Under the pieces are notes generated by a model. That model ran no database searches and was not told where the DNA came from. It saw only the letters and a program-made list of their open reading frames with translations. From IMG/VR virus record IMGVR_UViG_3300009164_000335, positions 1 through 25,069 of that record: a stretch of 25,069 bases of DNA, one strand, 5' to 3'. The DNA comes from a virus. Made by a program: the position numbers and the translations under genes. Shown in pieces: positions 1,080-19,252 of the stretch (position 1 is its first letter; the number at the start of each line of letters is the position of its first letter).

Positions 1080-1149
1080 AAGGATATTGCTGTATGAAGC
1101 GATGAGAAATGAGTCTTGGACCCGGGTGCGATTCCCGGCAGCTCCACCA
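1080..1149 (+). ncRNA. ssrA: Permuted tmRNA, acceptor (3') piece
   Basis: The segment ends with a T-arm (stem CCGGG/CCCGG, seven-base loop TGCGATT) and an acceptor strand CAGCTCC-A-CCA ending at 1149. This is nearly the 3' end of ordinary bacterial tmRNA. No anticodon arm or 5' acceptor strand lies upstream. The partner strand GGGGCTG lies 104 nt downstream at 1254 and pairs over seven positions, including the G3-U pair that specifies alanine charging. This is the layout of circularly permuted two-piece tmRNA genes. The 5' boundary is approximate. GCTGT at 1089-1093 could pair with ACAGC at 1295-1299 as part of helix P2. Confidence 0.88.
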
Positions 1150-1162
1150 AAAGGAGATTGGC

Positions 1163-1252
1163 ATGGACGAGGAAATGATATATCAACTAGTATGTGGAAT
1201 ACTAATAGTTGTCTCGTTGGTGTCATTTGCATGTTATCTAATCTTTTTTTGA
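1163..1252 (+). CDS. 29-aa single-pass membrane peptide inside the tmRNA linker
   Basis: An ATG with a strong AAAAGGAG site (from 1149, six bases before the start) opens 29 codons. An acidic N-terminus (MDEEM) is followed by an unbroken hydrophobic stretch (LVCGILIVVSLVSFACYLIFF), one transmembrane helix, ending at TGA 1250-1252. The ORF lies wholly between the tmRNA CCA end (1149) and the first base of the coding piece (1254), so it occupies the segment processing would remove. Small membrane peptides are common in phages; its function is unknown. Chance is possible for an ORF this short, but the ribosome-binding site and the exact fit argue for translation. Confidence 0.62.
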   Translation: MDEEMIYQLVCGILIVVSLVSFACYLIFF

Positions 1253-1253
1253 T

Positions 1254-1433
1254 GGGGCTGATCAGTTTCGACAGGGCAAAAAGTAACAAAGTGGACAGCT
1301 CGGGAATGTGAAACCCGTAGGATTTGCGTATGCAAGTCGAAGAAGCAAAAAACGTAAATGCAAACGACGAACAGTTCGCTTTAGCCGCCTAACAGCCGCT
1401 TAGGGTAGGAAATACCTCGTAACAGAAACCACC
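1254..1433 (+). ncRNA. ssrA: Permuted tmRNA, coding (5') piece with tag ANDEQFALAA
   Basis: It starts GGGGCTGATCAGTTTCGACAGGG, the conserved 5' acceptor strand and D-like domain of tmRNA. A pseudoknot-like GC-rich segment (CGGG/CCCG near 1301-1317) follows. The resume codon is probably GCA 1360, in the context AAAAAACGTAAAT-GCA, and the reading frame 1360-1392 encodes ANDEQFALAA plus TAA. The LAA end is the ClpXP/ClpAP degron. After the tag a short hairpin (GGTA/TACC near 1405-1416) precedes the terminator. tmRNA with SmpB rescues stalled ribosomes and tags the nascent chain for proteolysis. The tag is of beta/gamma-proteobacterial type, unlike cyanobacterial or alphaproteobacterial tags. The 3' end is approximate. 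Confidence 0.93.
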
Positions 1434-1462
1434 AGAAAAGGCTCTTCGGAGCCTTTTCTTTT
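1434..1462 (+). terminator. Rho-independent terminator of the tmRNA gene
   Basis: A perfect 11-bp stem (AGAAAAGGCTC / GAGCCTTTTCT) with a TTCG tetraloop is followed by T-rich sequence. It ends the transcript right after the tmRNA coding piece and supports the tmRNA boundary. Confidence 0.93.
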
Positions 1463-19160: not shown

Positions 19161-19252
19161 GGGCCTGTAGTTTAATGGTAAAACGGCGGATTTATATCCC
19201 GTAAGCAACAGATAATTGGTTCATCTCGGTTCAATTCCGGGCAGGCCTACCA
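19161..19252 (+). tRNA. tRNA with unusual long variable region (anticodon read as UAU, uncertain)
   Basis: Acceptor GGGCCTG/CAGGCCT, D-arm GTTT/AAAC with GG in the loop, and T-arm CTCGG-TTCAATT-CCGGG, then an encoded CCA. In the anticodon arm, GCGGA/CCCGT pairs four of five (A-C mismatch) around TTTATAT, giving UAU for AUA (Ile) at 19193-19195. An alternative pairing GGAT/ATCC competes. About 22 bases lie between anticodon and T arms, far more than a class I tRNA has, while the D-arm is class I. It could be a tRNA with an insertion or a degenerate class II tRNA. Confidence 0.8.

Follow-up and report, generated by a model that had tools for sequence, protein, structure and literature searches.

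The window analysed here is an entire viral record, a 25 kb phage contig of 25,069 bases. It carries a gene for tmRNA, which rescues ribosomes that are stuck, in the permuted (two-piece) arrangement, on which ARAGORN and Rfam agree. The Rfam scan of the window gave a match to RF04321 at 1088–1392 with 119.7 bits (cut-off 47) and one to RF01850 with 107.3 bits (cut-off 84). The covariance model covers the whole tRNA-like domain in permuted order, and the ARAGORN prediction is permuted too. As read from the sequence, the acceptor stem has 7 bp with a G3-U70 pair (GGGGCUG/CAGCUCC-ACCA), the CCA is encoded and the tag ends in AA before its stop codon. The features of the locus are as follows.

1088–1149, plus strand: acceptor piece with the upstream arm, the T arm and CAGCUCC ACCA, the CCA being at 1147–1149 (RF04321; ARAGORN 1057–1483; sequence).
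1150–1253, plus strand: linker of 104 nt with the nested small gene, forming one long hairpin and predicted to be absent from the mature tmRNA (sequence, ARAGORN, Rfam, fold).
1151–1156, plus strand: Shine-Dalgarno sequence AAGGAG, doubling as the 5' strand of the linker end helix through pairing with 1243–1248 (sequence; paired probability about 1.0).
1163–1252, plus strand: linker ORF of 29 aa, MDEEMIYQLVCGILIVVSLVSFACYLIFF, with one predicted transmembrane helix and the stop codon UGA at 1250–1252 (sequence).
1237–1249, plus strand: 3' strand of the linker end helix, which encodes the last peptide residues and pairs with the Shine-Dalgarno strand (fold, covariation).
1254–1392, plus strand: first part of the coding piece, with the GGGGCUG acceptor strand and the tag ANDEQFALAA at 1360–1392 (ARAGORN, Rfam).
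1434–1459, plus strand: terminator-type hairpin and T-run at the end of the tmRNA transcript, GAAAAGGCTCTTCGGAGCCTTTTCTTTT (sequence; the stem was also predicted, there scored on the minus strand).

The RNase P site would be expected at 1254, and removal of the linker in the window, giving two RNAs, is assumed here from the tmRNA family; RNase P and tRNase Z have been proposed as the processing enzymes (PMC3985003). By eye, the upstream neighbours of the tmRNA are an Hsp20-like small heat-shock gene (94–553) and a ClpS adaptor-like gene (557–859), which together with the ssrA tag make up a possible phage proteolysis module. Near the ClpS relatives of other phages (L187–L198), ARAGORN finds no tmRNA. 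In the tRNA-Ile(UAU) at 19161–19252, the anticodon arm is followed by about 19 additional bases, a variable region unusually long for an isoleucine tRNA.

The sequence-only reading had placed a ribosome-binding site straight after the CCA, followed by a 29-codon ORF with one membrane helix that ends at 1252, and the sequence bears this out: the ATG (1163–1165) stands 6 nt downstream of AAGGAG. The motif quoted there, AAAAGGAG, does adjoin the CCA, but its first letter is already the final A of the CCA (1149). A single base, U1253, separates the stop codon from the coding piece, as had been claimed. The peptide has a single strongly hydrophobic stretch, with a 19-residue Kyte-Doolittle maximum of 2.73. 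The window thereby shows the layout by which we define a linker-ORF class, namely a Shine-Dalgarno sequence at most about 12 nt from the CCA and an ATG from which an ORF of at least 20 codons runs as far as the linker end, and its Shine-Dalgarno sequence lies inside the helix that joins the linker ends.

Taken by itself, the window does not prove a gene, as chance is only mildly improbable. Of the dinucleotide shuffles of the whole linker, 1.4% contained a Shine-Dalgarno sequence, an ATG and an ORF of at least 20 codons (P about 0.014), whereas the frame stayed open in 13% of shuffles that kept the Shine-Dalgarno sequence, the ATG and the terminal UGAU (P 0.13), so that openness alone is weak evidence. 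A second frame is open over the linker (1087–1311; TTG start, no Shine-Dalgarno sequence), and the position of the stop codon is partly explained by UGAU, which is terminal in most phage linkers, with or without an ORF. The only close relative of the window, L057, matches it at 99.96% identity over 10.4 kb and does not differ from it in the linker; because of this near-identity, the peptide's own comparative coding evidence is weak. Similarity to two linker families is also weak (shuffle P 0.002–0.003 before correction for 18 comparisons). In the family clustering the peptide has no entry of its own and, by score, would most likely fall inside the YEVI group, to which its similarity is weak. 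A tblastn search of phage genomes returned nothing beyond matches at E about 5 in Aeromonas phages, and the peptide had no match in PHROGs or Pfam and none above cut-off in NCBIfam. Its coding status would then rest on class membership and the weak similarity to the two families. With an open second frame and no diverged homologue, the linker could serve structure alone, with an AAGGA-like helix strand and an open frame coinciding by chance to give the ORF. We consider this quite unlikely: the whole-linker shuffles, the one clean predicted transmembrane helix, linker ORFs in all the nearest distinct tmRNA relatives and a layout that fits a class with strong coding evidence all speak against it.

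This class emerged from a scan of 2.9 million viral contigs for permuted tmRNAs in which no ORF was required, so that the linker set is unbiased. Among the matches listed, 15 of 87 distinct linkers of 80–110 nt had a Shine-Dalgarno sequence, an ATG and an ORF of at least 20 codons, as compared with a mean of 0.9 and a maximum of 4 in shuffled linkers and none on the reverse strand. For linkers of 111–141 nt and ORFs of at least 25 codons, the figures were 35 of 93 distinct linkers among the matches listed, against a mean of 1.2 and a maximum of 4 in shuffles and 1 on the reverse strand. A Shine-Dalgarno sequence fell in the first 12 nt in 14/15 ORF linkers but in 2/72 others (80–110 nt set, among the matches listed). 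Further linker-ORF homologues with weaker Shine-Dalgarno sequences were seen among the listed 111–141 nt matches, and targeted scans added others. Rfam confirmed a permuted tmRNA in all 14 ORF-type loci scanned. In bacterial and archaeal genomes, a search with one linker-ORF pattern gave a lone match without a tmRNA (L199).

The linker peptides cluster into about 21 or more families, 9 of them with a membrane-type helix; the remaining ones are zinc-finger-like, basic or amphipathic, or carry a C-terminal YL(S/A/G)G motif. This C-terminus, following an amphipathic N-terminus, is common to otherwise unlike marine peptides (L245, L256, L264, L270, L286, L290, L309, L152, L168 and L201). The MF, MDEV, MFDR and MDREIW peptides had no match among the INPHARED phages. 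Linkers of another type (L006, L029, L044 and L111) encode a conserved W-rich stretch (FYTENEWSRSIGWGPLPPER / FFTEREWSRIVGWDLPP) and have no Shine-Dalgarno sequence after the CCA; their frame appears to run on upstream through the CCA. Some non-coding linkers (L230, L301, L303 and L307) have T-arm-like hairpins, for example GGTTCGAATCC, and L303 has a second acceptor-like piece, a hint of tRNA or tmRNA fragments in the slot.

In order to look for selection on the peptides, the observed amino-acid changes were compared with those expected if the same substitutions fell randomly. The MF family showed 59 differences where 85.7 ± 3.8 were expected. Deficits were likewise found in MDEV (15 vs 24.6), YEVI (13 vs 19.8), MVNG (5 vs 9.1), MFDR-YLSG (23 vs 36.2), MSNLLL (18 vs 26.2), MDREIW (17 vs 25.2) and the family of phage Melnitz (12 vs 19.8), and amino-acid changes were also significantly fewer in MKLE (L152/L158), MSDIVTYL and MDFHWI. 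Some families were left out, their sequences being too close or too few. Moreover, length changes within families are multiples of three, as in the Melnitz (142/166 nt) and MKLE (124/121/118 nt) linkers. Together, these comparisons indicate significant amino-acid-level selection in about ten linker-ORF families.

The MF peptide (MFENWHWVY membrane peptide) was also searched for without a tmRNA anchor. It was found inside tmRNA linkers in about 18 contigs and as a free-standing gene in nine (L356, L359, L361, L362, L364 and L366–L369), which represent about three groups of related phages and in which the gene mostly ends just upstream of a permuted tmRNA. In L363 and L372, no tmRNA was found beside the gene. 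In L356 and L367, the MF gene lies upstream of the tmRNA and a different ORF occupies the linker. The ORF of the window extends over the linker as far as the processing site, an arrangement that would also suit a leader ORF, in which the passage of the ribosome and not the peptide would regulate tmRNA maturation. We regard this as very improbable: amino-acid-level selection in many families, and the encoding of the same peptide outside the linker, argue that the peptide itself matters. The sequence-only reading had proposed that the pre-tmRNA is both a messenger and a tmRNA precursor. For the class this is well supported by selection, in-frame indels, the free-standing homologue and the Shine-Dalgarno enrichment; for the peptide of the window it is weakly so, the one close relative being near-identical.

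The linker ORFs change while the tmRNA stays. The tmRNA bodies of L235 and L248 are 99.3% identical over 282 nt and hold unrelated linker ORFs, and those of L091 and L100 are 96.4% identical, one with an ORF linker and the other with a structured non-coding linker. Overall, unrelated linkers were found on tmRNA bodies that are 91–99% identical, both ORF against ORF and ORF against non-coding. The nearest distinct relatives of the window's tmRNA (L134, L262 and L181, 81–84.5%) have a linker ORF each, all different. Since nearly identical tmRNAs hold unrelated linker ORFs, the linker behaves as a cassette slot.

The linker is also highly structured. The region 1143–1260 folds with -37.4 kcal/mol (z -4.5), and none of 200 shuffles was as stable; the linker fold also surpassed synonymous variants in stability (P 0.04 and 0.02). 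In 54 ORF-type linkers, positions 1–9 pair with positions -5 to -13 in 85–100% of cases with strong covariation, and the Shine-Dalgarno sequence is usually the 5' strand of this end helix. Non-ORF linkers (n=60) have the end helix and its covariation likewise, so that regulation is not what the helix was built for. Summed over 12 linkers, end pairing reached 9.65 as compared with 5.72 ± 0.98 in synonymous variants (200 sets, maximum 8.22). By these comparisons, selection acts on the protein and on the helix, through nucleotides common to both. The first G of the Shine-Dalgarno sequence faces a U in 37/54 ORF linkers and in 10/60 others, linkers that are related, so that no P value is given; this pair may keep the helix openable. 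In single-sequence folds of the ORF linkers L017, L041, L064 and L080, the Shine-Dalgarno sequence is only partly paired.

These observations bear on whether translation and processing compete, the possible switch that the sequence-only reading had put forward. Because the Shine-Dalgarno sequence forms part of the end helix, its exposure and the processing fold should exclude each other, and the covarying helix strand and the pairing in excess of synonymous variants lend this idea structural support, short of proof. A rival explanation is nesting for compactness: a real gene in a polycistronic phage transcript, translated and matured without mutual regulation, with the Shine-Dalgarno sequence falling in the helix only because the space available to the gene has its 5' end there. 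The end helix of linkers without an ORF, the interchangeable position of the MF gene upstream of the tmRNA or in the linker, and the deeper Shine-Dalgarno sequence of some ORFs (in phage Melnitz, GGAG about 10 nt after the CCA) all fit it, and we treat it as a serious possibility, though not the one we would choose. What weighs against it is that the end helix of ORF linkers exceeds the synonymous expectation, so that Shine-Dalgarno sequence and helix have to draw on common nucleotides and cannot be free simultaneously.

A small hydrophobic peptide with a single helix and a structurally masked Shine-Dalgarno sequence, as found in the window, also resembles TisB or Hok. In known type I toxins, the Shine-Dalgarno sequence is masked by pairing of the 5' and 3' ends of the same RNA. 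By this analogy of size, helix and masking, the 29-aa peptide would be toxic, kept silent by the hairpin until a failure of processing or a disturbance of transcription. Membrane peptides make up no more than half of the linker families, however, the others being zinc-finger-like, basic or amphipathic, and no family match was found in the three databases; a toxin seems improbable to us.

The ends of the ORFs suggest a further possibility. Eight families end with TGA|U at the linker end, as does the window, six with GAU| and three with AU|, and four stop earlier; with all three frames occurring by family, stop placement was rejected as a sign of design. In the six GAU families, no stop codon interrupts the frame before the exact boundary of cleavage. 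An RNase P cut at the coding piece would leave a message whose end coincides with its last codon, as after GAU in these families, or follows just behind it, as with UGA-U in the window. Its ribosomes would become tmRNA substrates, and the peptide would accumulate only when trans-translation is overloaded. A precedent is the arfA mRNA (RNase III, tmRNA; PMC3985003), in which cleavage at the ORF end likewise could create a non-stop message for trans-translation, although gene, nuclease and location are different. Such control cannot be the general purpose, since the ORF stops short of the linker end in four families and is out of register there in three, and the phases resemble chance thirds; we rate it as unlikely, if slightly less so than a toxin.

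The explanation that we prefer, and hold to be probable, is that the linker is a slot for an exchangeable small-protein gene, that the 29-aa membrane peptide is this phage's cargo, and that the peptide is made from the unprocessed transcript, with closure of the helix making its synthesis self-limiting. Production would be mainly co-transcriptional. The Shine-Dalgarno sequence would emerge about 90 nt ahead of the final peptide codons, with which it pairs, allowing early ribosome loading, and would stay accessible only until the helix receives its 3' strand or for as long as a ribosome keeps the helix open. After transcription of these codons and departure of the last ribosome, the helix would close and mask the Shine-Dalgarno sequence. 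With the helix closed, RNase P and the 3'-end nucleases would be offered the acceptor-stem fold, the linker would be removed and translation would end, tying peptide output to tmRNA synthesis. The probable role of the peptide is that of an accessory factor ('moron' or host takeover) at the inner membrane of the host. The shared geometry of Shine-Dalgarno sequence and helix can be read directly from the nucleotides, whereas timing and regulation are what we infer from it. A masked Shine-Dalgarno sequence could also mean poor translation, which counts against the preferred explanation. For the broader proposal, that phage permuted tmRNAs have a general cassette slot in which the shared nucleotides make each precursor choose between message and tmRNA maturation, we see the chances as evenly balanced.

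Permuted tmRNAs (reportedly, Keiler 2000) have the acceptor piece, excised linker, coding piece with tag and intact tRNA-like domain that are seen here. The phage linkers described here differ in being long and in containing small ORFs; published linkers, in the parts of the literature covered, are non-coding, one holding a tRNA gene. A survey of 11,946 permuted sequences (PMC11915505) speaks, in the passages covered, of linkers that hold a tRNA gene or a repeat and does not mention linker ORFs. The sequence-only reading knew of no described case, and our search, within the literature that it covered, found no account of a protein gene in a tmRNA linker.

Protein genes nested in segments removed from functional RNAs are known. 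Some group I introns, tmRNA introns among them, carry homing endonucleases. The intervening sequence of 23S rRNA in Coxiella encodes S23p (PMC4990558). Here, there is no mobile intron and no endonuclease: the window peptide matches no such family in Pfam, PHROGs or, above cut-off, NCBIfam, and the Rfam scan of the window gave no intron family. Moreover, ORF and processing helix have nucleotides in common, and the cargo families change while the RNA stays. In the dual-function RNAs SgrS/SgrT and RNAIII/hld, one transcript is both a functional RNA and the message for a small protein. In the pre-tmRNA, by contrast, maturation takes the coding part out of the RNA, so that the two roles are expected to be sequential or exclusive. 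The nested gene in an excised part is thus of a known kind; cassette exchange and the sharing of nucleotides between Shine-Dalgarno sequence and helix are the new features.

One member of the class belongs to a cultured phage. Melnitz (L201, MZ577097) has a permuted tmRNA (1142–1594 of the locus) and, inside the annotated SsrA, a 41-codon linker ORF, MFKWLSKTRLVVITRDYFRERNRKADAKIPKYLSGTRSVYD, located at 46096 onward in MZ577097, with the GGAG described above; its host is the OM43 (Methylophilales) strain H5P1. Unlike that of the window, the Melnitz peptide is soluble and basic, with a YLSG motif and no membrane helix. Searched for without tmRNA anchoring, it turned up in no contigs other than those already known to have it in a tmRNA linker (13/13). 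The GenBank record MZ577097 annotates only SsrA at the linker, with no CDS. The description of the Melnitz tmRNA, in the passages covered, treats riboswitch and tmRNA phylogeny and does not mention a linker ORF (PMC9004378).

Few bacterial RNAs have been studied as well as tmRNA, and in the literature surveyed its linker counts as waste. If linker genes are translated and selected, phage annotation misses a set of host-takeover peptides, one of them in a cultured phage. The pre-tmRNA would then be a message in which use and maturation compete, and what selects for long linkers in phage permuted tmRNAs would become directly testable.
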